From positions 1-57,200 of the forward strand of contig CANFXR010000007.1 in assembly GCA_947451035.1 (NCBI GenBank): a stretch of 57,200 bases of DNA, written 5' to 3'. The DNA comes from Burkholderiales bacterium (lineage in GTDB: Bacteria > Pseudomonadota > Gammaproteobacteria > Burkholderiales > Burkholderiaceae_C). The notes under the pieces are model-generated. The model did no database searches. It saw only the letters and a program-made list of their open reading frames with translations, and was not told where the DNA came from. The translations under genes and the position numbers were made by a program. Within the stretch, counting starts at the first letter, position 1; every line of letters begins with the position of its first letter. Below, piece by piece: positions 9,417-47,852 of the stretch.

Positions 9417-11475
<2,059 letters not shown>

Positions 11476-11489
11476 TCGGCCCCGACCGC

Positions 11490-11518
11490 AAAAAAGCCCG
11501 CTGCGTGCGGGCTTTTTG
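11490..11518 (+). terminator. Intrinsic terminator after glnB
   Basis: AGCCCGC and GCGGGCT pair around a short loop, preceded by A5 and followed by T5. Because of the A-run it may also end the converging RDD operon. Confidence 0.85.
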
Positions 11519-11566
11519 TTGCCTGAATCTCGCGCAGCACGCTCGGCGCGGGTGCCGCGACAGCGC

Positions 11567-12915: not shown

Positions 12916-12926
12916 GCCCGAGACGT

Positions 12927-15973: not shown

Positions 15974-16126
15974 TGCGCTGAACGCTGGAGCGGCGCAGGC
16001 GTTACCGCGTCTGCCTAACCTCCGGCGGACGCCGCACGCGATCGGAATGGACAACAACTTAACTCAGGCGTCGCCTGAGGCCGGCACACACCCCTGCCGT
16101 GCCTTGAGAGCGATCCGACAAGACAC

Positions 16127-16618
16127 ATGAAACACATCATTGCGCTGCTGCTTGAAAACGAACCCGGTGCGCTTTCGCGCGTCGTGGGTCTTTTCTCGGC
16201 TCGTGGCTACAACATCGAGAGCCTGACCGTGGCAACGACCGAAGACCCGTCGTTGTCGCGCATGACGATCGTCACCACCGGCTCCGACGAGGTGATCGAG
16301 CAGATCACCAAGCACCTGAACCGCTTGATCGAGGTGGTCAAGGTGGTCGATCTCACCGAGGGCGCCTACACCGAGCGCGAACTGATGCTGATCAAGGTGC
16401 GCGCGGTGGGCAAGGAGCGCGACGAGATGACCCGCATGGCGGACATCTTCCGCGGCCGCATCATTGATGTGACCGAGAAAAGCTACACCATCGAACTGAC
16501 CGGCGACTCATCGAAGCTCGATGCTTTCATCGAGGCCATCGATCGAGCCGCCATTCTTGAAACTGTGCGCACCGGTACCAGCGGGATCGGTCGCGGAGAG
16601 CGCATCTTGCGCGTTTGA
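16127..16618 (+). CDS. ilvH: Acetolactate synthase, small (regulatory) subunit
   Basis: 163 residues, the normal length for IlvH. An N-terminal ACT domain (MKHIIALLLENEPGALSRVVGLFSARGYNIESLTV) binds valine for feedback inhibition, and a C-terminal domain (about 80-163) activates the catalytic subunit. The Gly and Asn positions of the valine site (NEPGALSRV, YNIESL) are present, so valine sensitivity is expected from the family. It lies between ilvI and ilvC in one transcription unit. Confidence 0.95.
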   Translation: MKHIIALLLENEPGALSRVVGLFSARGYNIESLTVATTEDPSLSRMTIVTTGSDEVIEQITKHLNRLIEVVKVVDLTEGAYTERELMLIKVRAVGKERDEMTRMADIFRGRIIDVTEKSYTIELTGDSSKLDAFIEAIDRAAILETVRTGTSGIGRGERILRV

Positions 16619-33587: not shown

Positions 33588-33615
33588 AAAAAGGGAAGCT
33601 GATGCTTCCCTTTTT
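33588..33615 (+). terminator. Terminator between tRNA-Gly and tRNA-Cys
   Basis: A 12-bp stem, AAAAAGGGAAGC (33588-33599) with GCTTCCCTTTTT (33604-33615), with a 4-base loop. Its symmetry lets it work in both directions. tRNA-Cys would need its own promoter or read-through. Confidence 0.8.
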
Positions 33616-33637
33616 CGTCACTGAGGTGGACCCTCAT

Positions 33638-33711
33638 GGCGCGATAGCAAATCGGTTATGCAACGGATTGCAAATCCGTCTAGCCCAGTTCGACTCTGGG
33701 TCGCGCCTCCA
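33638..33711 (+). tRNA. tRNA-Cys (anticodon GCA)
   Basis: 74 bases with encoded CCA. Acceptor GGCGCGA/TCGCGCC, anticodon stem ACGGA/TCCGT around TTGCAAA (anticodon 33670-33672), T-arm CCCAGTTCGACTCTGGG. Confidence 0.96.
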
Positions 33712-33751
33712 AACAAATGTCTTTTGCGGCAAGCATCTGGTCGCTGTGGAC

Positions 33752-33776
33752 AAGCCCGGCTGGTCCGGGCTTTTTT
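33752..33776 (+). terminator. Terminator after tRNA-Cys
   Basis: AAGCCCGG (33752-33759) pairs with CCGGGCTT (33765-33772) around a 5-base loop, with a T6 run. Confidence 0.85.
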
Positions 33777-33917
33777 GCGCCTGCACGTTGTGATCGACGA
33801 CGGATGTCAGTCTGTTTCTCGAAACGCGGCTGGAAGGGTGCGGGTCTATACGGCCGGCGCAGCGCAATGGATTGGCATGCAGTTTCGGGCCGGCTTTCCC
33901 CTCGCACGGGCAGCGGG

Positions 33918-34334
33918 TCAGTTCAGTATCTTGGTGACCGACAGCCGGTTCCAGCCGGCCTCGCGCCGGTAGGTCACGCTGTCCATCAGTTCGCGAACCA
34001 GGAACACGCCCAACCCACCGATGGGGCGATCGTCGATGTCGGCGTCGAGGTCGGGCGCCGGGGCTTGCAGCGGGTCGAAGGCGACACCGTCGTCGGCGAT
34101 CTCCATGGCCAGCGCCACACCCTCTTGAGCCAGATGCAGTCGCACCTGCGGAGTGGTGACGCCATCGGACCCGTAGGAAATGACGTTCATCATGATTTCC
34201 TCGAGCACCAGCCTGAGTTGGAACAGCGCCGTCTCGGACCACGCCATGCGCGCGGCGAATGCGTCGAGTGCCCGGTCGGCCTCTTCCAGAGCGGCCATAT
34301 TGGCCATCAATTCAAGGGTGATCTGCTGTGACAC
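33918..34334 (-). CDS. RsbW/SpoIIAB-like serine kinase (anti-sigma-type ATP-binding protein)
   Basis: 138 residues, a GHKL ATPase fold alone, as in RsbW and SpoIIAB. The N-box is EEIMMNVISYG (about 54-64), the G1 box ADDGVAFDP and the G2 box GGLGVFLVRELMDSV. In partner switching such proteins bind a target (often a sigma factor) and phosphorylate an STAS antagonist. The start is a GTG with GAGG eight bases upstream; the frame is open further upstream without any similarity. It is divergent from the STAS gene at 34524 (189 bp between). No sigma factor gene is adjacent, so its target is unknown. Confidence 0.87.
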   Translation of the reverse strand: MSQQITLELMANMAALEEADRALDAFAARMAWSETALFQLRLVLEEIMMNVISYGSDGVTTPQVRLHLAQEGVALAMEIADDGVAFDPLQAPAPDLDADIDDRPIGGLGVFLVRELMDSVTYRREAGWNRLSVTKILN

Positions 34335-34523
34335 GTGTTGGACCTCAGGGAGGGTTTTAACCCACATTCTCGGCGGACCCCACCCGCAGGGTGACGTGGT
34401 CCGATCGGGCGCACGCGGGGTTGTGAATGACGCCGGCCCGCTCGCAGCAAAGAGAGGTAAAGTGAGCCGCCTTCTCCGGGCACCCAGCCGCCCGCCACCA
34501 CACACTTTCATGGACGCTACAAC

Positions 34524-34805
34524 ATGAGCTCGACATCCTACAAACTCGCCGGCCGTCTTGATGGAGCCAGCTCTGCCGCGCACGAGAAGGCGCTGCAGTC
34601 GCTGCTCGTGGACGATGTCGATTCGATTGACATCGATCTGTCGGAACTGGACTACGTCAGCAGCGCGGGTCTGCGCGTGTTGCTGGTGGCGGCCAAGGCG
34701 GCCAAGGCCAAGGGCGGCAAGGTCACGCTGCTCTCGCCCAAGCCTTCCACGCTGGAAGTGCTCAAGATCAGCGGCTTCGACAAGATCATCGCCATTCAGG
34801 CCTGA
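34524..34805 (+). CDS. STAS domain anti-sigma factor antagonist
   Basis: 93 residues, a single STAS domain like SpoIIAA/RsbV. The phosphorylation segment is LDYVSSAGLRVLL, with the candidate phosphoserine in the pair Ser46-Ser47. By family logic, the unphosphorylated form binds the RsbW-like kinase encoded divergently and phosphorylation releases it; a PP2C phosphatase resets it. A suitable phosphatase (receiver-PP2C) is at 46385. The GPP34 gene starts eight bases after the stop, so the two are co-transcribed. Confidence 0.92.
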   Translation: MSSTSYKLAGRLDGASSAAHEKALQSLLVDDVDSIDIDLSELDYVSSAGLRVLLVAAKAAKAKGGKVTLLSPKPSTLEVLKISGFDKIIAIQA

Positions 34806-34813
34806 GCACCACC

Positions 34814-35476
34814 ATGACAACCCACACCCAACTCACGCTGGCCGAAGAGCTGGTGCTGATCGCGCTTGATGACGAAAGCGGCTCGCTCATCAGCCTGCCG
34901 CAGTTCTCACTCGAGTTTGCCTTGGCAGCGGCTTTGGTGATGGAGTTGACCTTGGTCGGGCGCATCGACACCGATCCCGAAAAATTGTTCGTTCTGTCAT
35001 CCGAACCCACGGGCAATGCCCTGTTGGACGACGCGCTGTCACAGATCAGCGCCGAGCCTCAGGTTCAGCCGACCGGCGTGTGGCTGCGCCGGCTGTCCCA
35101 GCCGGGTCCGGCGCTGTGCGAGCGCGTGATTGGCGGGCTGGTCGATCGAGGCGTGCTGCGCTCGGTCGAGAAGCGCTTGCTTTGGGTGTTCAAGACCCGC
35201 GTCTATCCGCCCACCAGCGGCCTCGAAGAGCGCGAGGTCAAGAGCCGCGTCATGACGCTGCTCAACAACGACGAGATCCCTGACACGCGCGATGCGTTGT
35301 TGATCGGCCTGTTGCGCGCCACCGGCATCATCGAACGGTTGCTCAGCACCACCGAACTGCACCGCCTCAGCCCGCGTATCAACCAGATCTCCAACCTCGA
35401 AGAAATCAGCCGTGAGCTGAGCAGCACCATCGCCGAGTTGCAGGCGGTGCTGGCTTCGGCGTTCATGTTCGGCTGA
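34814..35476 (+). CDS. GPP34 (GOLPH3/Vps74-like) family protein
   Basis: 220 residues, no signal peptide or membrane helix. The start LTLAEELVLIALDDESGSLI is the recognisable GPP34 opening, and the alternation of amphipathic helices (LEFALAAALVMELTLVGRI; ERVIGGLVDRGVLRSVEKR; DALLIGLLRATGIIERLLS) continues the family pattern. In eukaryotes GOLPH3 binds phosphatidylinositol 4-phosphate and sorting signals; bacterial members, best known in actinobacteria, have no established role. Placement directly after STAS suggests use in the partner-switch pathway. Family call from memory of the N-terminal motif. Confidence 0.78.
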   Translation: MTTHTQLTLAEELVLIALDDESGSLISLPQFSLEFALAAALVMELTLVGRIDTDPEKLFVLSSEPTGNALLDDALSQISAEPQVQPTGVWLRRLSQPGPALCERVIGGLVDRGVLRSVEKRLLWVFKTRVYPPTSGLEEREVKSRVMTLLNNDEIPDTRDALLIGLLRATGIIERLLSTTELHRLSPRINQISNLEEISRELSSTIAELQAVLASAFMFG

Positions 35477-35541
35477 CGCTCAGGCGTCGGTTTGCGCCCC
35501 GAGAACCCCGGGGAGTTCGGCCAGCCACGTGCGTTGCCCAG

Positions 35542-36504
35542 ATGACCAACATATCCGAGCTGGCGAGCTTCCTCACGCATCTACACGAGAAACACCGTTC
35601 GAACGACGAGGGTGAGGTAGCGACCTACATCCCTGAACTGGGCAAGGCCAACCCCGACCATTTCGGCATCAGCATGGTCACGGCGGATGGCGAGGAGTTC
35701 TCGGTCGGTGATGTCGATCAGGAGTTCACCATCCAGTCCATCTGCAAGCCGCTGGCTTTCCTGATGGCGCTCGAGCAGCACGGCCGCGACAAGACGCTGT
35801 CACATGTGGGCATCGAGCCGAGCGGCGATGCCTTCAATTCGGTGGAGTTGTGCCCCAAGGTCAAGCGCCCGTTCAACCCCATGGTCAACGCCGGCGCCAT
35901 TGCCACGGCTTCGTTGATCAAGGGGGTGTCTGCCGAAGCCGGCGTGACCGCGTTCGTGGATTGCCTGAGCAAGGCAGCCGGCAGGCCGTTGCGGGTGGAC
36001 GAACTTGTGTTTGCATCGGAGGCATCCACCGGGAACCGCAACCGCGCCATTGCCTATCTGCTGCGCAATTTCGATGTCATCGATGAGCATGTCGATCACA
36101 CCTTGCACCAGTATTTTGCGCAGTGCTCGGTGCTCGTGAACTGCCGCGACCTCGCCGCGATCGGCGCCACCTTGGCCAACGTGGGCGAGAACCCGCAGAC
36201 CCACACGGAGGTGTTCGACGCCTTCTGTGTGCGCGACGCGCTCGCAGCCATGTTCACCTGCGGCATGTACGACTACGCGGGCGAGTGGGCCTTCCGCGTG
36301 GGTGTGCCGGCCAAGAGCGGCGTGGCCGGCGGCATCATGGCGGTGGTCAACCGTCAGTTGGGATTGGCTGTCTATTCACCGCGGCTTGATGAGCGCGGCA
36401 ACAGCGTGCGCGGCATCAAGGTGTGCGCGGATCTTTCCGATGAATTCGGGCTGCACGCCTTCGACTGCACGAACTTCGGATCGAGCCTGCTGCGAACCTT
36501 GTAG
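35542..36504 (+). CDS. glsA: Glutaminase A
   Basis: 320 residues, close to the usual 305-310. This serine-dependent enzyme hydrolyses glutamine to glutamate and ammonia in the cytosol. The beta-lactamase-like fold has Ser66-Ile-Cys-Lys69 in FTIQSICKPLAF, the NAGAIA segment (PFNPMVNAGAIATASLI), NRNRAIAYLLRNF and the C-terminal GVPAKSGVAGGIMAVV. No STAS or cyclic-nucleotide domain is fused, though such fusions exist in other glutaminases. It sits 65 bp after the GPP34 gene and before the chemosensory genes. Two hairpins follow it. Confidence 0.93.
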   Translation: MTNISELASFLTHLHEKHRSNDEGEVATYIPELGKANPDHFGISMVTADGEEFSVGDVDQEFTIQSICKPLAFLMALEQHGRDKTLSHVGIEPSGDAFNSVELCPKVKRPFNPMVNAGAIATASLIKGVSAEAGVTAFVDCLSKAAGRPLRVDELVFASEASTGNRNRAIAYLLRNFDVIDEHVDHTLHQYFAQCSVLVNCRDLAAIGATLANVGENPQTHTEVFDAFCVRDALAAMFTCGMYDYAGEWAFRVGVPAKSGVAGGIMAVVNRQLGLAVYSPRLDERGNSVRGIKVCADLSDEFGLHAFDCTNFGSSLLRTL

Positions 36505-36571
36505 CGGTTCGTCGGCGACTCTCGAACCGCATGGCGCGGCGGGATTTCGCCTTGAGCGGGCGTGCTCAAGG
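36504..36571 (+). repeat. Two consecutive perfect hairpins after glsA
   Basis: GCGGTTCG (36504-36511) pairs with CGAACCGC (36523-36530), and CCTTGAGC (36550-36557) with GCTCAAGG (36564-36571). Both stems are 8 bp. Neither has a T-run; they may act as a Rho-assisted end or protect the 3' end. Confidence 0.55.
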
Positions 36572-36667
36572 TGTCACCGTGAGCGGCGCATACTGCGCGC
36601 CTTCCAGGATGAATCCCAAGTGGTGCTTTGGCTTTCATTCGTCTGACCCATCGAGCATTCCGCACTC

Positions 36668-37402
36668 ATGACCAAACTCAACACGTCCGAACAGGCTGTC
36701 TTTCGGCGATCACTGATCAATCTGGCCAGCCTGATGCTGCTCATGGTGCTGACCACGGGGATCGCCGGCTTGTTTGCGGCCTGGTCGCTGAGCGAGTTCC
36801 ATCTGCGCATCGAGAAATCGGTCACCGAAGCCTCCTCCGTGGTCAACGATGCTCGCTTGGTTCAAGCCGAATTCAAGGCGAAGGTAGAGGCTTGGAACAA
36901 GATCCTGCTGGCGGGATACGTCTTGGAAGATCGCGATCGCCTGAGCTCTGCCTATCGCACGCAAGCCAAGAAAACCATCGACTTGCTGCAGTCGCTGCCG
37001 GCCAAGGTGGATCGGTTGGCACTCCTGACCAAGGCTGATGAGCCCTACAAGCTGGCCGATGCAGTCGATGTTCCAAAAATCCTTGCTGAACTGCGGGCGC
37101 TCAACGAGCGCTACGAGACTGCCCTTGCGGCGGCATCGGCCGAGGACGCCATGGACGGCTGGGATCCGATGCTGGCTGACGGGCAGGTTCGCGGCGCCGA
37201 CCGGCCGGTGAGCGAGGCCATGGAGCCCATTCCTGCCGCAATCCTCAGTGCCGTTGAGGTGAATTTGCTCAGGTCGCAGCAACTGGGAGCAGCCCGGTTT
37301 GAAACCCTGCTGCGATTCGTCTGGTCCGCCATCATCTTCGCGCTCGCGATGGTGGCGATCATGATCTGGCGCATCCTCAGGCATCCGGCGCTCACCCGAT
37401 GA
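36668..37402 (+). CDS. Orphan periplasmic four-helix sensor protein, no signalling domain
   Basis: 244 residues. Transmembrane helix 1 is at about 16-40 (LINLASLMLLMVLTTGIAGLFAAW), a helical periplasmic region at about 41-215, helix 2 at about 217-238 (FVWSAIIFALAMVAIMIW), then a six-residue cytosolic tail. The segment VQAEFKAKVEAWNKILLAGYVLEDRDRLSSAY resembles the ligand-binding domain of betaproteobacterial MCPs. HAMP and methyl-accepting domains are absent, with no sign of a frameshift because the frame ends by overlapping the next start (ATGA). It may pair with the transporter or with the HAMP-less MCP; that is inference. Confidence 0.72.
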   Translation: MTKLNTSEQAVFRRSLINLASLMLLMVLTTGIAGLFAAWSLSEFHLRIEKSVTEASSVVNDARLVQAEFKAKVEAWNKILLAGYVLEDRDRLSSAYRTQAKKTIDLLQSLPAKVDRLALLTKADEPYKLADAVDVPKILAELRALNERYETALAAASAEDAMDGWDPMLADGQVRGADRPVSEAMEPIPAAILSAVEVNLLRSQQLGAARFETLLRFVWSAIIFALAMVAIMIWRILRHPALTR

Positions 37403-39003
37403 GTGAGGTGGGCGTCACGGCCTGGGCGGGTCTGGGGCTGTTTTTCGTGGGCATGCGCATGATCAGCACGCACGTTCGCCAACTGGGCGGGGGCAGTTTT
37501 CACGCCTTCCTGGTTCGCAGCTTGGTGCGTCCGATGGCGCCGCAGTCGGCAGGCCTGATGTTCGGCGCCTTGACCCAGTCCACCGGGGCCGTCACCTTCG
37601 TGACTTCGGGCCTGGTCGCCGCGGGTGCGCTGACGATGGAGCGCGCGCTGCCCATGCTGTCGTGGGCCAACGTGGGCACTTCGGCGCTGGTGCTGCTCGC
37701 GGCCGTCAACATCCACTCGATGGTGCTGCTGCTGCTGGGCACCGTCGGGTTGGCGGTTTTCCTGGGCATCGAGCAGTCAGACCGCTACCGTCACGTGGTG
37801 TTTGCGCTGCTCGGCCTGGGTCTGCTGCTGTTTGGTCTGATGATGCTCAAGGGCAGCATTGCCGCGCTGGGCAGCGAGCCCTGGATGCGCGAGTTCGTCG
37901 AGTTCGCGGGCTCTGGCGTGGCCATCGCGCTGGTGGCCGGTTTCGTCATCGCGGTGGCAGTGCAGTCGTCTTCGATCGTCACGGTGCTGGCGTTGCCGCT
38001 CGTGCACGAGGGGCTGCTCAGCCTCGATCAGACAGTGCTGATGATCTACGGCGCCAGCGTGGGCTCTGGCTTTGCCGTGCTGCTGCTGGCCTCCGGCATG
38101 GAGGGCACGTCGCGGCAGTTGTCCTTGTGCCAGGCTGTCTTGCGGGCGATGACGGCGCTGGTGCTGCTGCCGCTGTTCTTCATCGAGAAGGGCGCCGGCG
38201 TGCCGCTCGTGCTGGCGCTGTTGCGTGCGGTGTCCGACGCCCCTGCGACCCAATGCGCGGTGGCCTATGTGCTGTTTCAGCTGATCCTGGTGCTGACCAG
38301 CCAGATCAGCGCGCGGTGGCTGCTGGGACTGGCGCGCAAGCTGGCGCCGCCCTCGCTCGAGGAGGTGCTCATGAAGCCGCACTACTTGTTCGAGGAAGCC
38401 GCGGGCGATCCCGCCACCGCGCTGTCGCTGGTGGAGCTCGAGCACCGCCGGCTGGTGAGCCTGCTGCCGGACTTTCTCGAAGATCTGCGCCCCGAGGAGG
38501 AGCGTTCGGCGCAAGCCGCGCCGTTGACGCTGCGTGCGGCCGCCAGTGAGGCCATTGCCGAAGAGATGGACCGCTTCCTGAGCGCGACGATCCGGGCCAA
38601 CCCCGATATGGCCGACATCGACCTGGTGTTCGCCGCGCGCAGCAGGCTGCAAACGCTGCGCCCGCTGCAAGCGGCCTTGCACCAGTTCGCATCCGAGCTC
38701 ATTGAAGTTCCGCGGGCCGAAAGACCGGTTTTTGCCGGGCACATGGTCGAGGGTTTGCATGCCATCCTGATGGTGGCCGCCGACACCGCCACCGACGATG
38801 GCGCCGATGCGGTCGAGATGCTATTCATCCTGACCGAGGAACGCAGCGCGCTGATGGAGCGCGTGCGTGAAGAGCTTCTTGGCGGCGGCACCAGCATCGG
38901 CGGGCGCGAATCCCTGCTGTCGGCGACGCTGACCTTCGAGCGGATCATCTGGTTGCTGCGCCGTTTGGCGCCAGCGCCTGCTGCCGCTGTGGTCCTCGCC
39001 TAG
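37399..39003 (+). CDS. Na/Pi cotransporter family protein with PhoU-like tail
   Basis: 534 residues. The first about 310 residues hold eight or so hydrophobic helices with the two Gln-Ser-Ser/Thr repeats typical of the NptA/PNaS family (GALTQSTGAVTFVTSGLVAAGAL and VAVQSSSIVTVLALPLV). The remaining about 220 residues are cytosolic helices like PhoU/DUF47 (EDLRPEEERSAQ; EMDRFLSATIRANPD). Sodium-driven phosphate import is the family function, though many bacterial members are untested. Its start overlaps the sensor gene by four bases, and cheA begins 46 bp after it. Confidence 0.87.
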   Translation: MSEVGVTAWAGLGLFFVGMRMISTHVRQLGGGSFHAFLVRSLVRPMAPQSAGLMFGALTQSTGAVTFVTSGLVAAGALTMERALPMLSWANVGTSALVLLAAVNIHSMVLLLLGTVGLAVFLGIEQSDRYRHVVFALLGLGLLLFGLMMLKGSIAALGSEPWMREFVEFAGSGVAIALVAGFVIAVAVQSSSIVTVLALPLVHEGLLSLDQTVLMIYGASVGSGFAVLLLASGMEGTSRQLSLCQAVLRAMTALVLLPLFFIEKGAGVPLVLALLRAVSDAPATQCAVAYVLFQLILVLTSQISARWLLGLARKLAPPSLEEVLMKPHYLFEEAAGDPATALSLVELEHRRLVSLLPDFLEDLRPEEERSAQAAPLTLRAAASEAIAEEMDRFLSATIRANPDMADIDLVFAARSRLQTLRPLQAALHQFASELIEVPRAERPVFAGHMVEGLHAILMVAADTATDDGADAVEMLFILTEERSALMERVREELLGGGTSIGGRESLLSATLTFERIIWLLRRLAPAPAAAVVLA

Positions 39004-39049
39004 ACTCTCGCAGTCGCGACGACGCAGCATTGGGCGAGACATTGAAGCC

Positions 39050-41332
39050 ATGAATCCGCTTACAGGCGCACCGTGGACCCCGGAGAATCTGGAGGTCGCG
39101 GCCACATTGATAAGTCAGCTGGCCGAAGAGTTGGCGTTTGTGGTGCCGGATCAGGATTCCGGGCTGCTCGCCATCAATGCGCTGTGCATGGATCTGGAGC
39201 AACTGATCGAGGCCGAGGCCGGCGCGCCGGTGGCGCTCGCCAGCGGCGTGGCGGTGCTGCGCCGGTGGATCGACGAGATTCTGGGCGGGCCGGTGCGCTT
39301 CAACCGTGTTTCGATCGATCTGCTGGGCGAGTGGCACCACTGGGCCAGCTCGGTGCTGGTCGCGATCGATCAGGGTGAGCCTGCGGGCGAGATGCCGCCG
39401 GGCTGGTCATCGACCGACCTGTCGGACACCGCCGCCGCCGCGCCCGAGGCCAGCCCGATGGCCGACTCGGCGGCCGAGCCCATCGTGCCGATCCTGCTCG
39501 ACTTGAGTCAGGATCAGGAGTTGCTGCGCGAGTTCTATGGCGAATCGATGGAACTGCTCCAGGACATCGAGCGCGGCGTGCTCGTGCTGGAAGAAAACCC
39601 CGGCGACAAGGGCACGATCAATTCGATCTTCCGCGCCTTTCATACCTTCAAGGGCAGCGCGGGGTTCTTGCACCTGGCTCCGCTGGGCGAACTCGCCCAC
39701 GAACTCGAGACCCTGCTCGACGCCGTTCGCCGGGCCGATCTGAGCATCAACCGCGAGATCATCGATTCGATCCTGGCCGGAGCCGATGCGCTCAACCAGT
39801 TCACGACCGAGATCGGCAGCCAACTGGATGGACGCAAGGTGGCTGATCCCATCTCGGTGCCCATCCGGCACATCCTGATGCGCGTTCGCGCGGCCCTGCG
39901 CGCAGAGTCGCCGGCGCCTGCGGTGGTGGTTGCCGCCCCGGTTGCGCCCGTCGCGCCCGTTGTGCCGCAGCCGCCAGCGATGGCGCCCGAGGTGCCGGCC
40001 TCGCAGCCCCGCGCCCCACAGGCAGCGCCCGCTGTGTCTGCCGTGCCGCCGGCCCCGCCGGTGGCCGAGCGTGCGGGCGGTGCCGAGCCACCGAAGGGTG
40101 CGCGCGACGCTGGAGCCGCCGGTGCCAGCGGTGGTTTCGTCAAGCTCGACACCGAAAAGCTCGACGCGCTGGTGAACCTCGTCGGTGAACTGGTGATCGC
40201 GCAGTCGATGGTGGTGCAAAACCCCGATGTGCAAGGCATCACCAGCTTGCAGTTGTCGCGCAGCCTGCGCCAGCTCAGCCGCGTGACCTCGGAGCTGCAG
40301 CGCAATGCGATGTCGATGCGCATGGTGCCCATCCGTGGTTTGTTCCAGAAGATGAGCCGGCTGGTGCGCGATCTGGGCGTGTTGCAGGGCAAGCAGGTGC
40401 AACTGGTGCTCGAGGGCGAAGAAACCGAGCTCGACCGCAACATCGTCGAGAAGATGAGCGATCCGCTGATCCACATGATCCGCAACGCGGTGGACCACGG
40501 GCTCGAACATGCCGCCGATCGCGTCGCCAGCGGCAAGCCGACCACCGGCACCATCCGGCTGTCGGCGGCCCATCAGCGCGGCGGGATCGTGATCCGCATT
40601 CAGGACGATGGCCGCGGGCTTGATGCCCAGCGCATCCTGGCCAAGGCCGTCGACCGCGGGCTGGTCCCCAACGGCGCCGTGCTGACCCAGTCCGAGATCT
40701 ATGCGCTGATCTTCCTGCCGGGCTTTTCGACGGTGGAAACCGTGACCGAACTGTCGGGCCGTGGCGTGGGCATGGACCTGGTGCTCGACCACATCCAGAC
40801 GCTGCGCGGCAAGGTCGAGATCGAGTCCGAGCCGGGAGCGGGCACCACGTTCACCATCTTGCTGCCGCTGACGCTGGCGATCATTGACGGGCTGCTGGTG
40901 GGCATCGGCGACGACCGCTACATCATCCCCACGCTGTCGGTGTGCGAGTCGTTCCGGCCCCGCGCGGCCATGATCAGCACCGTGCACGAGCGCGGTGAAA
41001 TGGTCAGCGTCAGGGGGCGCCAGATGCCGTTGCTGCGCCTGGGCAATCACCTCGGCGTCAAGTCGCGTGCGGTGACGATCGAGGAAGGCATCATCGTGGT
41101 GGTCGAGTCGGGCGGCGCGTCGCGTGCGCTGCTCGTCGACCAGTTGATCGGCAAGCAAGAGGTGGTGATCAAGAGCCTGGGCCGTGCCTTCGAAAACCAG
41201 AATCTGGTGGCGGGCGGTGCGGTGCTCGGAGACGGCTGGGTCGGGCTGATCCTCGATGTGGACACGTTGGTCAAACTGCCGCTGGACAATCGAGCGGGCC
41301 TCGCGCCGGCATCCACAGGGACTCACCCATGA
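39050..41332 (+). CDS. cheA: Chemotaxis histidine kinase CheA
   Basis: 760 residues. Residues 1-115 form a helical domain I do not recognise. The Hpt domain (about 150-260) has phospho-His198 in FRAFHTFKGSAGFLHL. A Pro/Ala linker (about 285-355) comes next, then the dimerisation segment from about 365 (FVKLDTEKLDALVNLVGELVIAQSM) and the kinase with NAVDHGLEH, DDGRGLD and GRGVGMDLV. The C-terminal CheW-like regulatory domain runs from about 610. No P2 domain is evident. The stop overlaps cheW (ATGA). All catalytic boxes are present. Confidence 0.95.
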   Translation: MNPLTGAPWTPENLEVAATLISQLAEELAFVVPDQDSGLLAINALCMDLEQLIEAEAGAPVALASGVAVLRRWIDEILGGPVRFNRVSIDLLGEWHHWASSVLVAIDQGEPAGEMPPGWSSTDLSDTAAAAPEASPMADSAAEPIVPILLDLSQDQELLREFYGESMELLQDIERGVLVLEENPGDKGTINSIFRAFHTFKGSAGFLHLAPLGELAHELETLLDAVRRADLSINREIIDSILAGADALNQFTTEIGSQLDGRKVADPISVPIRHILMRVRAALRAESPAPAVVVAAPVAPVAPVVPQPPAMAPEVPASQPRAPQAAPAVSAVPPAPPVAERAGGAEPPKGARDAGAAGASGGFVKLDTEKLDALVNLVGELVIAQSMVVQNPDVQGITSLQLSRSLRQLSRVTSELQRNAMSMRMVPIRGLFQKMSRLVRDLGVLQGKQVQLVLEGEETELDRNIVEKMSDPLIHMIRNAVDHGLEHAADRVASGKPTTGTIRLSAAHQRGGIVIRIQDDGRGLDAQRILAKAVDRGLVPNGAVLTQSEIYALIFLPGFSTVETVTELSGRGVGMDLVLDHIQTLRGKVEIESEPGAGTTFTILLPLTLAIIDGLLVGIGDDRYIIPTLSVCESFRPRAAMISTVHERGEMVSVRGRQMPLLRLGNHLGVKSRAVTIEEGIIVVVESGGASRALLVDQLIGKQEVVIKSLGRAFENQNLVAGGAVLGDGWVGLILDVDTLVKLPLDNRAGLAPASTGTHP

Positions 41333-41874
41333 GCAACAACCTCGCCACTTCGACTCCAGCGGGCACTGCTGCGCTCGCCGGGCGTTACCTGACGTTCATG
41401 CTCGGGACCGACTCCTACGGGCTGCCGGTGCTCAACGTGCGCGAAATCATCCGCCTGTGCCCGATCACCCCCGTCCCGCGCATGCCCGAATACGTCAAGG
41501 GCGTCATCAACCTGCGCGGCACGGTCATCGCCGTGATTGACCTGCGTGCCAAGTTCGAGATGCCGGCGTCGACGCTGGGAGACCGCTGCTGCATCATCAT
41601 CGTGCAGATCCGCTCGCTGAGCGGCGGTGCCAGCACGCTCATGGGCGCTGTCGTCGATGCGGTCGAAGAGGTGGCCAACCTGGCTGGCGCAGACATTGAG
41701 CCCACCCCCGATTTCGGCGGCACGCTCGACACGCGCTACATGCTGGGCGTGGCCACCATCCGCGGCGGCGTCAAGACGCTGCTCGACATCGAGAAGATCT
41801 TTCAGGAAGACGGCAGCCTGGCGATGTCGGCCGCGTCCAACTCCACCCCCGCTGTACCAGCCAAGGCATCATGA
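41329..41874 (+). CDS. cheW: Chemotaxis coupling protein CheW
   Basis: 181 residues, a single CheW domain linking CheA to receptors. After a 20-residue Ser/Thr-rich start come [31 protein letters not shown] and the conserved [22 protein letters not shown]. The C-terminal 20 residues are low complexity. It overlaps cheA and the MCP gene by four bases on each side, so the three are coupled and probably made in fixed ratio. Confidence 0.95.
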
Positions 41875-43562
41875 ACATGAACAACTGGACCATCTCGCGA
41901 CGCATCACGGCGGGCTTGAGTGCCCTGGTGCTCCTGACCCTGCTGATTGGCACGTTCGCTTTCCTGCGCATGCAGGAGATGTCGCAGTCCATCACCTTTC
42001 TGTCGGACTCGACCGTGCCCAGCCTCGTGACGCTGCATGAGATCAGCCGATCCGTGCGCCGGCAAGCGGTCGCGCACGATGACATCGCCAGCGCCGATGC
42101 CAACCGGCGTGCGCCGCTGCAAGAGGCACTCGCCAAAGAGCAGGCCGCGCTCAAGGGCTTGCTGGACAGGTACGAGACCTCGCTGATCGCTGACGACGAA
42201 GACCGGCGGCTTTTTGGCGATATCAAGCTGAGTCTGGCTGACGTGCAGGCCACCGCACGTCAATACGCGGAAAAGCCCGACGTCCAGGGCGCGCCGGCTT
42301 CGGCGTCCGCCGCCAGCGCTGTCGAGCCGCGCACAGAGTTGCGCGTGCTGCTCTCGCCGGCGCAAAACAAGTTGATCGTCGCCATCGACGAGAGCGTGCG
42401 CTACAACGAAAAGGTCGGTCGCGCCGCCGGCGATCTGGGCAAGTCCGTCTCGGCCTCGGCCATGCAGGTGCTGAAGATCTCGGTGGCCGTGGTGGTGTTG
42501 CTGGCCATCGGCATCAGCTTTTTCATCGTGCGCTCGACGACTCGCGTGCTGGGCGAAATCATTGGCAGTCTGGACGCCAGCGCCTTGCAGACGGCGTCTG
42601 CCGCCCGCCAGGTGTCGATGGCCAGCCAGATGCTGTCATCGGGCGCCAGTGATCAGGCCTCGGCGATCGAGGAAACCAGCGCCTCGCTGGAAGAGATTTC
42701 CAGCATGGTGCGCGCCACCGCCGACAACGCCGAGCGGGCCAAGGATCTGGCCGCGCAGGCGCGCGGCGTCGCCGAGGGTGGCAGCAAGATCATGGTCGAC
42801 ATGAAACTGGCGATGACGGCCATCGACGAGTCGAGCGCTGAGGTGGCCAAGATCGTCAAGAACATCGACGAGATCGCGTTCCAGACCAACATCCTTGCGC
42901 TCAATGCGGCCGTCGAGGCCGCGCGAGCCGGCGAGGCTGGTGCCGGCTTCGCCGTGGTGGCCGACGAGGTTCGCTCGCTCGCGCAGCGCAGCGCCGCGGC
43001 CGCCCGGGAAACCGCCGACAAGATCGATGCGGCCATCGCCAACAGCCGCCGTGGCGCCGACTGCACGGCGCAGGTCGGTCGTGCGCTCGAGCAGATCACC
43101 GACAAGGTCACCGCCACCGACTCGCTGGTGGGTGAAATCGCCGGCGCTGCCAGCGAGCAGGCCCAAGGCATCGGACAGGTCGGCGTGGCCGTCAATCAGA
43201 TGGAGCAGATCGCCCAGAGCAACTCCATCAGCTCCGAAGAAAGTGCGGCGGCTGCGGAACAGCTCGACGCTCAGGCCGAGATGATGAAAACGCTGGTCGA
43301 CCGCCTGCGTGCGCTCATCAGCGGCGGCGCCGCGTCGGAGTCGGTGTCGAACGCCCGAGACGCTGCCGGCGCAGGCACTTCCGCGCGCTACAGCCGGCCG
43401 ATCAAGCCGACCGCGGCGCCGGCGGCTGCGCCACGCAGCCGGCCGGCACCGGCGCCTGCCGCCATCAGCGGCTCGCGCATGCAAGCCCTGGGCAACATCC
43501 CGATGCCCGAGCCGCGAGATGGCGACGGCGAGCCAGGCGGCGGCAGCTTCCGCAATTTCTGA
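41871..43562 (+). CDS. Methyl-accepting chemotaxis protein without HAMP domain
   Basis: 563 residues. Transmembrane helix 1 is at about 16-36, the periplasmic part (about 37-195) is helical with an Ala/Ser-rich interruption, and helix 2 is at about 200-221 ([18 protein letters not shown]). The methyl-accepting coiled coil starts almost at once ([43 protein letters not shown]), so the roughly 50-residue HAMP linker is missing. The CheA/CheW-binding tip is intact ([35 protein letters not shown]). The Pro/Ala-rich tail ends FRNF, not a clear CheR-tether pentapeptide. Ligand unknown. Confidence 0.9.
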
Positions 43563-43591
43563 GTCGAGCCGCGTCGCTGCCGTCCCGGCCC

Positions 43592-44431
43592 GTGAACACG
43601 GTCGCCCATGAGTTGTCGGATCAGGCCTTCCGGATCCTGGTGGACCTCGTCTATGAGCACAGCCACATCCGTGTGGGGCCCGACAAGCAATTGATGCTGG
43701 CCAACCGGTTGCGCAAACGCGCCCGTGGGCTCGGTTTTGACACCTGCAGCGATTACGCGGTCGCACTGGCGCAACGCGGAGATTCCGACGAAGTCGAAGA
43801 ACTGGTGGATCTGGTGTCCACCAACCACACCCAGTTCTTTCGCGAGTCCGAGCACTTCGAGTTCCTGGCCAAGACGGCGATCCCGCAGTTTCTGCCGGCT
43901 GCCTTGGCCTCGGGTTCGCCGCTGCGGGTGTGGTCGGCCGCAGCGTCGTCCGGCGAGGAGCCCTATTCGATCGCGGTGACGCTGGCCGAGCAGTTGCGCG
44001 GCCATCCCCAGGTGCAGTGGGAGGTGCTGGCCTCCGACATCTCGAAGCGCATGCTGGCTCATGCGCAACTCGGCGTGTACCGGATGGACCGTGTGCATGC
44101 CGTTCGGCCGGAATGGTTGCAGCGACATTTCGAACAGGGCTTTGCCGAGTCGCACGGCCAGTGCCGCGTGCGCGCCGAGTTGAAGCGGCACGTGCAGTTC
44201 GAGCGCATCAACCTGTTCCAGGACCGCTACCCCATCGCAGCGCGTCAGCACGTCATCTTTTGCCGCAACGTCATGATCTATTTCGACTTGAACTCGCGCG
44301 CTGCAGCGGTCGAAAAACTCGCGGCGCAGCTGGTGCCCGGCGGCTATCTGGTGATCGGCTATTCGGAGAGCTTGCTGGGGATCAAGCACGCCTTGCAGCC
44401 GGTCGGGCAGGGGATCTACAAGCTGCCATGA
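43592..44431 (+). CDS. cheR: Chemotaxis protein methyltransferase CheR
   Basis: 279 residues. It transfers methyl groups from S-adenosylmethionine to receptor glutamates. An N-terminal helical domain (about 1-85) leads to the SAM domain, with TNHTQFFRESEHFEFL, the SAM loop VWSAAASSGEEPYSIA and IFCRNVMIYFD; the final YSESLLG is typical. The start is a GTG 29 bp after the MCP gene without a strong ribosome-binding site. The stop overlaps cheB (ATGA). Confidence 0.94.
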   Translation: MNTVAHELSDQAFRILVDLVYEHSHIRVGPDKQLMLANRLRKRARGLGFDTCSDYAVALAQRGDSDEVEELVDLVSTNHTQFFRESEHFEFLAKTAIPQFLPAALASGSPLRVWSAAASSGEEPYSIAVTLAEQLRGHPQVQWEVLASDISKRMLAHAQLGVYRMDRVHAVRPEWLQRHFEQGFAESHGQCRVRAELKRHVQFERINLFQDRYPIAARQHVIFCRNVMIYFDLNSRAAAVEKLAAQLVPGGYLVIGYSESLLGIKHALQPVGQGIYKLP

Positions 44432-45483
44432 ACAGCCCGGCCAGGATCCGCGTACTGGTGGTCGATGACTCGGCCATCGCCCGGCGTTCGATCACGCAGG
44501 CGCTGGCACGCGACCCGGCGATCGAGGTCGTTGGCGTGGCCAGCGATCCCTACGTGGCGCGCGACCGCATCCTGGCCTTGCGTCCCGATGTGCTCACGCT
44601 CGACCTCGAGATGCCGCGCATGGACGGCCTGACCTTCCTGAAGATCTTGCAGGAGCATCACCCGATTCCCGTGGTGGTAATCAGCTCGGCCACCCCGGCC
44701 GGTTCGGCCATGGCCATGGAGGCGCTGGCCGCCGGTGCCGTCGATGTGGTGGGCAAGCCCGATGGCAGCCAGGCGCTCGGCGAGGTGGCCAGGCACCTCG
44801 CGCAACTCGTCAAGGCGGCTGCCCGGTCGCACCGCTGGCAGGGCGCGCCGGCGACGGCAGAAGCGCAGCCCGCGCTGCAAGGCGGTGGCGTGGCCAGCGT
44901 GCCCGGTCGCGTCATCCTGATCGGGGCTTCCACGGGCGGTGTCGAGGCGCTGCGCTTTGTGTTGCCCCGCCTTCCGGCGGACCTGCCGCCGATCCTGGTG
45001 GTGCAGCACATCCCACCACGCTTTTCCCGCACGATGGCCCAGCACCTTGATGAGCTGTGCCCGTTCCCCGTGCGTGAAGCCGAAGACGGCGAGGAGGCGT
45101 CCTGGGGTACCTGTCTGGTGGCGCCGGGAGACTTCCACATGGCGCTCGTCAAGACGGCGGGCGGCTACCGCGTGCGGCTCGCGCAGTCGCCGCCCGTGCA
45201 CCACTGCCGCCCGGCCGTCGATGTGCTGTTCCGCTCGGCGGCGGAGCACGCGGGCCAGGACGCGGTGGCCGTGCTGCTGACCGGCATGGGCGTTGACGGC
45301 GCGCGCGGCATGCTCGCGCTGCGCACGCTGGGCGCTCGCACGCTGGCCCAGGACGAGAGCAGTTGCGTTGTGTTCGGCATGCCGCAAGCCGCGATCAAGC
45401 TCGGTGCCGCCGAGAAGGTGGTGCCGCTGCACCGCATGCCTCAGGCCATCATGCACGCCCTGACGGGAAGGCATCCGGAGTGA
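44428..45483 (+). CDS. cheB: Chemotaxis protein-glutamate methylesterase CheB
   Basis: 351 residues. The receiver domain (1-125) has VVDDSAIAR and acceptor Asp59 in TLDLEMPRMDGL. The esterase domain (about 155-345) has nucleophile Ser168 in IGASTGGVEAL, His in VVQHIPPRFS and the Asp in LLTGMGVDGARGM. Phosphorylation by CheA would activate demethylation of the MCP. The start is set by the ATGA overlap with cheR. The 3' end overlaps the CheX-like gene by four bases (GTGA). Confidence 0.95.
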   Translation: MNSPARIRVLVVDDSAIARRSITQALARDPAIEVVGVASDPYVARDRILALRPDVLTLDLEMPRMDGLTFLKILQEHHPIPVVVISSATPAGSAMAMEALAAGAVDVVGKPDGSQALGEVARHLAQLVKAAARSHRWQGAPATAEAQPALQGGGVASVPGRVILIGASTGGVEALRFVLPRLPADLPPILVVQHIPPRFSRTMAQHLDELCPFPVREAEDGEEASWGTCLVAPGDFHMALVKTAGGYRVRLAQSPPVHHCRPAVDVLFRSAAEHAGQDAVAVLLTGMGVDGARGMLALRTLGARTLAQDESSCVVFGMPQAAIKLGAAEKVVPLHRMPQAIMHALTGRHPE

Positions 45484-45968
45484 AGACCTCTGCAGGCCAG
45501 CCGCAACTGGCGCCCATCGTCGCCAATGCGCTCAGCCATGTGCTGAACACGCAGTTCAATCTGAGCGCCCAGGCCCTGAGCGAGCCACCTGCCGTCCCGG
45601 ACGGGTACGCATCGAAGCTGCAAAGCCGCATTGACCTGTCGGGCGCGCGGGTCCAAGGCGAGATCGTGCTTTCGCTGCCCGATGCGCTGGCCAACCTGCT
45701 GGTGGCGCACATGCTCGGCTTGCCCGACACGGCCACCGCCTCGGATGCCGACAAGCTGGACCTGGCCGGCGAGTTCTGCAACATGCTGGCTGGACAGATC
45801 GGCGGCGCGTTGACGTCCAGCGGCTACATCAATGACCTCAGCACACCGAGGGTGCAGCGCCTGGAGGCGGGCGCATCCCCGGGTGCAGACTCCGACTTCA
45901 ACGGCGCCTGGTGCTGCGCCGGCCAGCCATTCACCTTGTCACTGTCTTTAAGGTTCGAGCCCACATGA
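45480..45968 (+). CDS. CheX/CheC-like CheY-P phosphatase
   Basis: 162 residues from a GTG overlapping the cheB stop. The CheC/CheX/FliY phosphatase motif D-x3-E-x2-N is present once, as Asp94, Glu98, Asn101 in DLAGEFCNMLAGQ. One motif and a single domain suit CheX, which dimerises. It would dephosphorylate the CheY encoded next, giving signal termination without CheZ. The family call is by motif and position; sequence similarity outside the motif is low. Confidence 0.8.
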   Translation: MKTSAGQPQLAPIVANALSHVLNTQFNLSAQALSEPPAVPDGYASKLQSRIDLSGARVQGEIVLSLPDALANLLVAHMLGLPDTATASDADKLDLAGEFCNMLAGQIGGALTSSGYINDLSTPRVQRLEAGASPGADSDFNGAWCCAGQPFTLSLSLRFEPT

Positions 45969-46348
45969 ATCCCAAGATCCTCAGCGTCGATGACAGCGGC
46001 CTCGTGCGCAAGGCCGTCTCCAGGGTGTTCAACCGCTTCGAGTGCACCATGATCGAAGCCGAGAACGGCGAGGTCGGCCTGCAGCAAACGATGGAGCATC
46101 GGCCCGATCTCATCATCCTGGACTACAACATGCCGGTGATGGACGGCGTCGAGATGCTCAAGCGGCTGCGCGCCGACGAGTCCCTGAAAAAGACCAAGGT
46201 CATCATGCTCACGGCGAACTCCAACCCCGAAACCATCGCCACGGTGGCCCGACTGGGTGTTCGCGACTACATCACCAAGCCGTTTGTCGACGAGCAACTG
46301 CTGGCCAAGGCGGCCCGGTTGGTCCCGCTCGTTCCCAAGCCGACCTGA
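45965..46348 (+). CDS. cheY: CheY-like single-domain response regulator
   Basis: 127 residues, one receiver domain. The acidic pair is at Asp9-Asp10 (SVDDSG), the acceptor Asp53 in ILDYNMPVMDG, the conserved Thr in MLTANS and the Lys in ITKPFVDEQ. The ATG overlaps the CheX-like stop (ATGA). Output could be a flagellar motor, but no flagellar gene is in the window, so it may instead be a phosphate sink or act on another target. Confidence 0.93.
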   Translation: MNPKILSVDDSGLVRKAVSRVFNRFECTMIEAENGEVGLQQTMEHRPDLIILDYNMPVMDGVEMLKRLRADESLKKTKVIMLTANSNPETIATVARLGVRDYITKPFVDEQLLAKAARLVPLVPKPT

Positions 46349-46384
46349 TCACCCTCACGCAGCACCCGCACGCCGGAGCACCCC

Positions 46385-47635
46385 ATGAATCAATCCACCC
46401 CCGCCAGCGACGCGCCAGCAGCCAGCCCCGAACGCTTGTCGCACGCCGATTTGCTGCAAAACGCCTGTGTCCTCGTGGTCGACGACAGCCGCATGATGCG
46501 GCTGGCGCTGGTGCGTGCGCTCAATGACCTGGGCGTCACCAACATCCTGGAGGCGCGCCACGGTCTGGACGCGCTGAACCAGATCCGCGCCAAGTCGTTC
46601 GACTTGATGCTGCTCGACATGGAAATGCCCGAGATGAGCGGCATCGAACTGCTGCTGGCCCTCAAGGCCGAGCCCGCGCTCGGTGCGCCGCCGGTGATCG
46701 TGATCTCGGGCGTCGACCAGATCGAAAACGCCGTTCAGTGCATCGAAGCGGGCGCCGAGGATTACCTGACCAAGAACTTCAACCCAACGTTGCTGCGCGC
46801 GCGCGTGACGTCGTCGCTCGAGAAAAAACGCCTGCGTGACGTCGAGCAACTGCAGCGTGCCCAGTTGGTGCAGGAAAAAGAGCGGCTCGAGCGCACCCAG
46901 CGCCGGCTCGATGAAGAACTCAACGAGGCGCTGAGGTACGTGCGCTCGATCTTTCCGCCGCCTGCCGAGGTGCCGCTCAAGATCGACTGGTTCTATGAGC
47001 CGTCGGCCGAACTCGGCGGCGACTCGTTCGGCTACCACTGGATCGATGACGAGCACTTCGCCATCTACCTGCTCGACGTGTGCGGCCACGGAGTCGGCCC
47101 GGCGCTGCTGTCGGTGACTGCCATCAACCAGATCCGTTCGGGCTCGATTCCCAACGTCGACATGCGCGACCCGGGCGCCGTGCTCGCCGCGCTGAGCAAC
47201 ATCTACCTGATGTCGAAGCAAAACGACATGTACTTCACGCTGTGGTACGGCGTGTATCACGCACCCACGCGCACCATCCGGCATTCGAGCGGCGGCCACC
47301 CGGCCGCGCTGCTGCTGATTCCGCAAGCCGACGGCAGCGTCGTGACCGAGCGGCTGCTGTCGTGCAACCTGATCATCGGCGCGTTCGAGGACGTGCCCTA
47401 CGACTCGCAGACCCACGTGGTGCCGCCGGGTGCCAAGCTGGTGGTGTTGTGCGACGGCTGCTTCGAGATCTGCGACACCGAAGGCACCGAGCTGACCTAT
47501 GAAGACTTCGAGGATTTCATGCGCCTCAACGGGCAAGCCCCCGACGCGCTGGAAGCCCTGTTCCGCTGGGCCCAGATGAAGCACGGGCCGGGCCCGCTCG
47601 ACGACGATTTCTCGATCGTTCGCGTTCAGCTTTAG
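46385..47635 (+). CDS. Receiver-PP2C (RsbU/SpoIIE-type) phosphatase response regulator
   Basis: 416 residues. The receiver domain (about 27-145) has VVDDSRMM, acceptor Asp78 in LLDMEMPEMSG and Lys in YLTKNF. A coiled coil (about 150-190, Gln/Arg/Glu-rich) links to a PP2C domain (about 200-416) with its metal-binding acids intact: GGDSFGYH, LLDVCGHGVGPALLS, LCDGCFEICD and LDDDFSIV. Such proteins dephosphorylate STAS antagonists. It closes the chemosensory operon, 36 bp after cheY with GGAG before the ATG. CheA is the obvious phosphodonor and the STAS protein at 34524 the obvious substrate; both are inferences. Confidence 0.92.
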   Translation: MNQSTPASDAPAASPERLSHADLLQNACVLVVDDSRMMRLALVRALNDLGVTNILEARHGLDALNQIRAKSFDLMLLDMEMPEMSGIELLLALKAEPALGAPPVIVISGVDQIENAVQCIEAGAEDYLTKNFNPTLLRARVTSSLEKKRLRDVEQLQRAQLVQEKERLERTQRRLDEELNEALRYVRSIFPPPAEVPLKIDWFYEPSAELGGDSFGYHWIDDEHFAIYLLDVCGHGVGPALLSVTAINQIRSGSIPNVDMRDPGAVLAALSNIYLMSKQNDMYFTLWYGVYHAPTRTIRHSSGGHPAALLLIPQADGSVVTERLLSCNLIIGAFEDVPYDSQTHVVPPGAKLVVLCDGCFEICDTEGTELTYEDFEDFMRLNGQAPDALEALFRWAQMKHGPGPLDDDFSIVRVQL

Positions 47636-47657
47636 CGCGTCGCCGCGCCGGTTTTTT
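47635..47657 (+). terminator. Probable terminator of the chemosensory operon
   Basis: A short GC stem, GCGCG (47635-47639) with CGCGC (47644-47648), is followed by CGG and T6. The stem is only 5 bp, so the call is moderate. CATAAT at 47670-47675 may be the -10 of the next tRNA. Confidence 0.45.
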
Positions 47658-47683
47658 CCCTGCCACGCCCATAATTCAAGCGG

Positions 47684-47775
47684 GCCCGGGTGGTGAAACT
47701 GGTAGACACAGCGGACTTAAAATCCGCCACTTCCTGAGAAGGGGTGTACGGGTTCGACCCCCGTCCCGGGCACCA
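47684..47775 (+). tRNA. tRNA-Leu (anticodon UAA)
   Basis: 92 bases with encoded CCA, class II. Acceptor GCCCGGG/CCCGGGC, anticodon stem GCGGA/TCCGC around CTTAAAA (anticodon TAA at 47718-47720), long variable arm, T-arm CGGGTTCGACCCCCG. Confidence 0.96.
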
Positions 47776-47852
47776 TCGGTTCGCGCTGCGGCGAACTGTC
47801 TCAATTTTCCCGTTCGGGCCTGCCGCCAGGCCCGACCCAAGGAGCGATTTGC

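Follow-up and report, generated by a model that had tools for sequence, protein, structure and literature searches.

The stretch of DNA considered here (the window, 57,200 bases) is one whole contig, CANFXR010000007.1, in assembly GCA_947451035.1 of a Burkholderiales bacterium, whose source genome comprises 2.95 Mb on 164 contigs and is 88% complete. Fourteen of its genes occupy a 14-kb block flanked by tRNA-Cys and tRNA-Leu, in which the genes of a chemosensory array stand together with those of a partner switch, namely a receiver-PP2C phosphatase, a STAS protein and an RsbW-like kinase. Genomes are labelled G and loci (stretches) L, and 4HB in gene orders denotes the gene of a 4-helix membrane protein.

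Gene content of the block

The inserted block of 13,972 bases (33712..47683, strand not applicable) was delimited by comparison with congeners. Its left border is tRNA-Cys (33638..33711, + strand; ARAGORN and the intact tRNA-Cys/tRNA-Leu pair in sister species) and its right border is tRNA-Leu (47684..47775, +). The window's flanks carry trigger factor, clpP, clpX, lon and tRNAs on one side and etfB and etfA on the other.

Gene reading and Pfam place the array genes on the + strand exactly as the original prediction had listed them. They encode CheA (39050..41332; N-terminal extension, Hpt with His198, dimer, ATPase and CheW domains by Pfam and motif positions, no P2 domain being reported by the Pfam scan), CheW (41329..41874), a chemoreceptor (mcp, 41871..43562) with a 4HB_MCP sensor domain, CheR (43592..44431), CheB with a receiver domain (44428..45483), a CheX-type phosphatase (45480..45968; Pfam 7.1e-10, with ExxN at residue 98, which we take to be the CheX motif), CheY (45965..46348) and, last, the receiver-PP2C protein (46385..47635; receiver and SpoIIE by Pfam), the proposed array output. 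Overlaps of 4 bases join five neighbour pairs (cheA/cheW, cheW/mcp, cheR/cheB, cheB/cheX and cheX/cheY); 29 and 36 bases lie between mcp and cheR and between cheY and the receiver-PP2C gene. The Pfam scan finds one CheW, no CheD and the 4HB_MCP receptor in the block, which also contains no flagellar genes. Directly 3' of the receiver-PP2C gene stands a terminator-like hairpin followed by a T run (47635..47648, +), a consensus match only, such sites numbering 16 against 8.0 in shuffles.

The STAS and RsbW-like genes were predicted for the other end of the block, and both coordinates and Pfam bear this out. The RsbW-like serine kinase gene (33918..34367, - strand; 149 aa, HATPase_c_2, Pfam 3.1e-25) is divergent from the STAS gene (RsbV/SpoIIAA-like; 34524..34805, +; Pfam and alignment to PDB 1auz). 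Pfam upholds the kinase's identity; the reading frame first given for it (33918-34820) begins too early, and we place the coding part at 33921-34367 plus stop, the ATG at 34367 being our choice of start. Four further genes between the two ends had been passed over, all on the + strand. GPP34 (GOLPH3/Vps74-like; 34814..35476; Pfam 4.4e-46), a candidate effector, follows STAS after 8 bases, and a glutaminase gene (glsA, 35542..36504; Pfam 2.2e-114) encodes a second candidate. After a further 163 bases come the 4-helix membrane protein (36668..37402; no Pfam match, predicted model pLDDT 86.5) and, overlapping it by 4 bases, a Na/Pi symporter family transporter (NptA-like; 37399..39003; Pfam, and NCBIfam NF037997 above cut-off).

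The catalytic residues are intact in the window, as had been claimed, and also in the aligned relatives. In the receiver, Asp33, Asp34, Asp78 and Lys130 are identical in 21 of 21 aligned receiver-PP2C proteins, and Asp78 is the correct residue to have been singled out for phosphorylation. The PP2C residues Asp213, 231, 357, 407 and 408, which we take to be metal ligands, are likewise identical in 21/21. Ser47 of STAS is present in all 23 aligned STAS sequences, five fusion proteins among them, and aligns with a Ser of SpoIIAA (PDB 1auz) that is presumably its phosphosite. In the kinase E56, E57, N61, D92, G117, G118 and G120 are kept in 17/17 aligned sequences, among which D93 and G94 are variable. 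On sequence, then, the marks of a partner switch are there: the Asp set of a SpoIIE-type PP2C, the STAS Ser, and the N and G boxes of a GHKL kinase. Gene reading and Pfam reveal no sigma factor gene encoded with the switch among the block's 14 genes, and a target may lie elsewhere.

The GPP34 domain scores 157.9 bits against a cut-off of 29.1 and matches Vps74 and GOLPH3 at 1e-8 to 1.4e-7. The Vps74 positions W88, R97, K178 and R181, which we take to be its PI4P contacts, look unconserved in a by-eye reading of the alignment. The 4-helix protein is a helical bundle in its predicted model, probably with N- and C-terminal transmembrane helices, judging by eye; Pfam found no signalling domain in it. 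Its structural matches are weak and include the sensor domains NarQ, the QseG-QseE complex and Tar; assignment to a known fold was rejected, no match reaching an E of 0.001 or better. The motif VQ[EN]WK[ND]xLLRG is kept in 10/10 aligned relatives of this protein and reads VEAWNKILLAG in the window, where the protein may be degenerating or may have a changed ligand.

Insertion in the genus and relatives beyond it

In five congeners (G003, G009, G010, G012 and G014) tRNA-Cys and tRNA-Leu lie 42-45 bases apart, flanked by lon and etfB, and in G008 lon and etfB are likewise close together (L187). G002 and G011 have the window's 14 genes between this tRNA pair. The set is also found in G005 with the same right border (tRNA-Leu, etfB), the 2.5 kb left of its rsbW holding neither lon nor a tRNA nor anything similar to the window. 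Because the block is present or absent between the same tRNAs among congeners, the array and the partner-switch genes arrived together as one block. Window-type RsbW (83-86% identity) occurs in 4 of the 15 genus genomes, namely the window's, G002, G005 and G011, with weaker relatives in seven others. It is these same four in which GPP34 exceeds its cut-off (299 genomes searched, own included), a receiver-PP2C gene scores >890 bits (100 genomes) and CheA of this type is found (9 genomes tested).

G007 differs, since some 2.6 kb upstream of its etfB contain other reading frames and tRNA-Cys without lon or block genes; hence the site may be a hot spot. At this site (L192, G007:C2:69000-72788) the frames between tRNA-Cys and etfB are dissimilar to the window, and a tRNA-Leu (taa) of 87 bases lies on the opposite strand. 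The etfB probe gave no match in G001 and G013. Integration of the tRNA type with att repeats was dropped, as no exact direct repeat of at least 10 bases is shared between 33601-33960 and 47561-47800 and no integrase gene is among the 14 block genes. A binning artefact was dismissed as well, for the flanks are typical of the genus and three further assemblies contain the block. The G002 bin holds two receiver-PP2C copies, on contigs C120 (L009) and C38 (L011); one of them, on an 8.7-kb contig, is 100% identical in protein to the window's, and that contig is possibly a stray one of the window species.

The receiver-PP2C query was scanned against one genome per species (84,980 species), which gave 257 matching stretches and 232 relatives, the best 80 of which were kept. 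The relatives come from Burkholderiales, other Proteobacteria and many Verrucomicrobia, mostly as metagenome bins, and the majority of the closer ones stand at the end of a homologous che operon. Co-occurrence of the CheA array with receiver-PP2C, STAS and RsbW genes, which the original prediction had made its test, is seen in several arrangements. RsbW is on the array's contig in 8 genomes (the window's, three congeners, G107, G109, G112 and G118), with differing gene orders. For example, rsbW-STAS-gpp34 with 4HB and nptA stands directly 3' of the array in L017 and L022, and rsbW-STAS-gpp34-(gpp34-MFS) and 4HB-nptA precede it in G109 (L108, L019). Similarly, STAS-glsA and nptA-4HB precede cheA in L018/L140, 4HB-nptA-STAS follows the array in L026 and L029, and rsbW adjoins receiver-PP2C in L028. 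The set rsbW-STAS-4HB-nptA of G102 is on a different contig from the array (L127) and looks adjacent to it because both contigs end in nptA; G105, G115 and G122 have rsbW-STAS-gpp34 on a contig other than the array's. HATPase_c_2 was found in 34 of 35 genomes searched (three of the 35 being congeners), in 32 at 2.4e-17 or better. A quick CheB tree (SH-aLRT 84-100 on the relevant forks, several long branches) splits the proteobacterial sequences into two groups lying among those of Verrucomicrobia and leaves L083 (Limnohabitans) outside, a pattern suggestive of inter-phylum transfer, although bin labels may be wrong.

Several partner-switch proteins of other make-up were met with. One family of STAS proteins shares a C-terminal domain, conserved and some 300 residues long, and in the six members scanned Pfam named nothing but the STAS part; its members (L026:9831-11069, L109:6390-7679, L114:11649-12917, L115:4697-6076, L116:4679-6031, L130:14019-15287, L131:13437-14702 and L134:8552-9880) mostly lie near rsbW genes. 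L014 has, immediately 3' of a che operon that includes receiver-PP2C, STAS fused to TCAD9/APH-like (11411-13711) and to APH-like (15105-16397) kinase domains. One frame of L132 (2718-5576) joins Cache-like, SpoIIE and RsbW-like domains as a partner-switch phosphatase/kinase fusion.

Exchange of the array output and candidate targets

At 14 loci the receiver that closes the homologous array is joined to an output other than PP2C. The output is a class III nucleotide cyclase by Pfam in L050, L054, L055, L058, L063, L064, L066, L083 and L084, a class III cyclase by sequence in L051, L060 (gene incomplete) and L077, and a hybrid histidine kinase in L052 and L056. Among loci with at least 1.9 kb downstream, STAS (at least 40 bits) or RsbW (at least 100 bits) is on the same contig stretch as the array in 13/18 PP2C versions against 1/9 with other outputs (Fisher p 0.004). 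The exception among the nine is L056, where STAS domains adjoin a second receiver-PP2C gene, and extra flanks of three of the nine added no STAS or RsbW. STAS/RsbW genes thus accompany the PP2C output more often than the cyclase or hybrid-kinase outputs, which supports a putative path from CheA through receiver-PP2C to STAS and RsbW. Che clusters of Polynucleobacter and Limnohabitans (L061, L070) lie near a receiver, about 50% identical to the window's, that is joined to a class III cyclase; L062, L067, L069 and L071-L076 look alike, some of them domain-scanned.

In Wsp-type arrays the last response regulator carries the enzymatic output, which in WspR is GGDEF and in the block would be PP2C. 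A similar layout is found in L041 and L042, Wsp-like arrays (CheA with a receiver) with rsbW, rsbW and STAS upstream and a receiver-PP2C, not a GGDEF regulator, at the end; L038 and L045 have the same array and receiver-PP2C with no RsbW or STAS in the stretch. The Opitutaceae loci L033 and L039 carry 4HB-nptA-STAS-receiver and then HisKA-receiver-PP2C, the only che-type gene of the stretch being that of the CheY-like receiver, so the input side is exchanged too.

The earlier view that the switch ends in release of the RsbW target probably does not cover the whole output, because the block has no sigma factor and fusions suggest that STAS acts on GPP34. Single-frame STAS-GPP34 fusions exist in five genomes, namely the congener G011 (L149) and the Verrucomicrobiota G111, G554, G562 and G571. 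GPP34 exceeds its cut-off in 27 of 288 Verrucomicrobiota genomes, and of the 30 loci inspected there, 7 have STAS fused to GPP34 or no more than 1.5 kb away and 23 do not. An amino acid permease gene comes next after the G011 fusion gene, and G109 has a fusion of GPP34 with an MFS transporter. STAS stands beside glutaminase without an intervening GPP34 in L018/L140, L023 and L130 (Verrucomicrobia). From these fusions and neighbours and the lack of a sigma factor, GPP34 is taken as the likely effector, with glutaminase and symporter as alternatives. No report linking GPP34 with STAS or with a chemosensory array was found in the open-access literature searched, among the matches listed. The own genome has a second, divergent GPP34 domain inside a 555-residue frame (G000:C48, L150:1129-2793).

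The proposed route and its alternatives

With moderate confidence, we read the block as one signalling route with its own targets, running from the array to a STAS switch and on to GPP34. The receptor, perhaps with the 4-helix protein, would control CheA, which would phosphorylate CheY and Asp78 of receiver-PP2C; CheR and CheB would adapt the array and CheX would drain CheY-P. RsbW would phosphorylate Ser47 of STAS, and phosphorylated receiver-PP2C would remove that phosphate. Unphosphorylated STAS would then bind RsbW and act on GPP34, as the fusions suggest, and possibly also on glutaminase, so that GPP34 would tune membrane transport or metabolism, not flagella or a sigma factor. The course from CheA to STAS and RsbW is that of the original prediction, with which gene linkage, joint insertion and the PP2C association agree; we infer the phosphotransfer and binding steps, the direction of control and the effector from the observed gene content, residues, insertion, linkage, output swapping and fusions. 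A wider reading, held tentatively and with more doubt than favour, is that a mobile array controls, via this phosphatase-STAS switch, a GPP34 acting on membrane transporters, and that homologous arrays have a common receiver platform on which the output domain (PP2C, cyclase or hybrid kinase) has been exchanged between lineages.

Several observations count against the route. The concordance within the genus is joint gain or loss of the block, with no sign of independent co-selection, because the genes lie in one block. The linkage drops to 10/18 versus 1/9 (p 0.042) when the additional sequence obtained for three PP2C loci is left out, and these statistics ignore the kinship of the genomes. 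The array of G115 has at least 10 kb on each side free of RsbW and STAS, which are both on another contig. Further, an RsbW-STAS pair lies away from the array beside another PP2C (L113/G126, L114/G108, L118/G129, L124/G128, L134/G117), which could therefore serve the pair in these array carriers. As to the effector, 20 of the 27 Verrucomicrobiota GPP34 genomes lack STAS within 1.5 kb of the inspected locus, and G102 has the array, RsbW, STAS, 4HB and NptA with no GPP34 in the stretch seen. Finally, the block's CheY may cross-talk with the flagellum because the genus is flagellated.

It is conceivable, if rather unlikely, that the pair of 4-helix protein and NptA is the real output, STAS or GPP34 gating the symporter. 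The Opitutaceae layout fits this, as do the GPP34-MFS fusion of G109 and the permease gene after the G011 fusion; against it, the 4-helix protein could equally be a sensor subunit, and the 163 bases noted above separate STAS-GPP34-glsA from 4HB-NptA in the window.

The classical output is less likely again: the array would set STAS phosphorylation, and STAS would free an RsbW-held sigma factor, or another regulator, whose gene lies outside the block, on the pattern of Shewanella CrsR/CrsA and RpoS. In that case GPP34 and glutaminase would be passengers or regulon members. The RsbW of PDB 6m36 is the only solved relative of the RsbW-like protein at an E of 0.01 or better, which speaks for such an output; the protein's 39.4 bits fall far short of the 145-bit cut-off of anti-sigma equivalog models, which speaks against it along with the STAS-GPP34 fusions and the missing sigma factor, a negative that covers the block, linked sets elsewhere having been searched only with models of the window's own genes. 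The closest published precedent does act on RpoS: the che1 locus of Shewanella oneidensis includes crsR and crsA, which make up an RpoS-directed partner switch (PMC9855816). It resembles the block as a che locus with a PP2C-bearing response regulator and a STAS antagonist, for which a role outside chemotaxis is proposed; going by the excerpted account, it has CheD, no CheX and the RpoS output (PMC9855816), whereas the block has CheX and no CheD, and links GPP34, glutaminase and NptA. CrsR and HsbR are each a single protein with receiver, PP2C and kinase parts (PMC6482189), whereas in the block RsbW is a separate gene and Pfam finds receiver and SpoIIE only.

Two separate neighbours, with the array acting via CheY on motility or pili and another PP2C serving a GPP34/glutaminase switch, make a quite improbable account. 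FlhA is found in the window's genome and in every congener but the 74%-complete G005 (13 of 14), and such an account could also draw on the interval between glsA and the 4-helix protein gene, on the halves lying on different contigs in G115 and G122, and on the RsbW-STAS pairs beside other PP2C proteins. It is contradicted by the linkage of STAS/RsbW with the PP2C version, the joint insertion, the linkage repeated in other gene orders, and array carriers without an FlhA match. Of the 17 array-family carriers outside the genus, 6 have an FlhA match and 11 do not (genomes of unstated completeness); five of the 17 have cyclase or kinase versions and 12 the PP2C version, 8 of these 12 without an FlhA match. 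Arrays of this family thus occur in genomes that seem to lack flagella, in keeping with the non-flagellar (ACF) class, although the own genome has FlhA. A flagellar chemotaxis cluster was dropped on these carriers and on the absence of flagellar genes from the block. The own genome has four CheA genes, so the block's array is an extra one. A chance neighbourhood is rejected on two counts: other genomes repeat these gene sets, and the genes make up a single inserted block.

A che2 cluster presumably lies near the Sia genes of Pseudomonas aeruginosa. Like the proposed route, SiaABC(D) is a partner switch with an enzyme, in place of a sigma factor, as its presumed output; this enzyme is a diguanylate cyclase, and the excerpted text names no array genes (PMC7647112). 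In Nostoc punctiforme, PP2C, STAS and RsbW-type proteins (HmpU/V/W) serve the same process as the chemotaxis-like Hmp system, and STAS itself is thought to be the output; that system is cyanobacterial and concerns hormogonium development, and the excerpts mention no GPP34 (PMC6495340, PMC8256260). In gamma- and beta-proteobacteria, the F7 stage 1 che clusters resemble the block in including STAS genes (anti-sigma antagonists) and a gene for a serine phosphatase (PMC7184735). They begin with the anti-sigma antagonist and CheY and have two CheW-like genes, an aer2-like receptor and CheD (PMC7184735), whereas the block has CheX, one CheW and receiver-PP2C last. Membership in F7 or Crs was rejected, as gene content and domain make-up differ (no CheD, one CheW, 4HB_MCP receptor, separate kinase). 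The statement that intermediates between chemotaxis and partner-switch signalling are uncommon therefore needs qualifying, as Shewanella che1 with CrsR/CrsA and F7 stage 1 precede (PMC9855816, PMC7184735), and given these, CrsR/HsbR and Nostoc Hmp, the general idea of an array with a partner switch is already known. New features, for which no prior publication was found in the open-access literature searched, are the array type, the separate RsbW, the block without a sigma factor, GPP34 as the likely effector, the joint insertion and the exchange of array outputs.

These loci make a natural experiment on how chemosensory arrays gain outputs, since members of one array family terminate in a phosphatase, cyclase or hybrid kinase, with partner-switch genes tending to accompany the phosphatase. 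They also offer a specific clue, open to experiment, to what bacterial GPP34 proteins do. If the proposed route is true, a reversible protein switch would give receptor arrays direct control over transport or metabolism. On the wider reading, bacterial GPP34 would receive a first function, and chemosensory systems would have an output other than motility, pili, c-di-GMP or a sigma factor.

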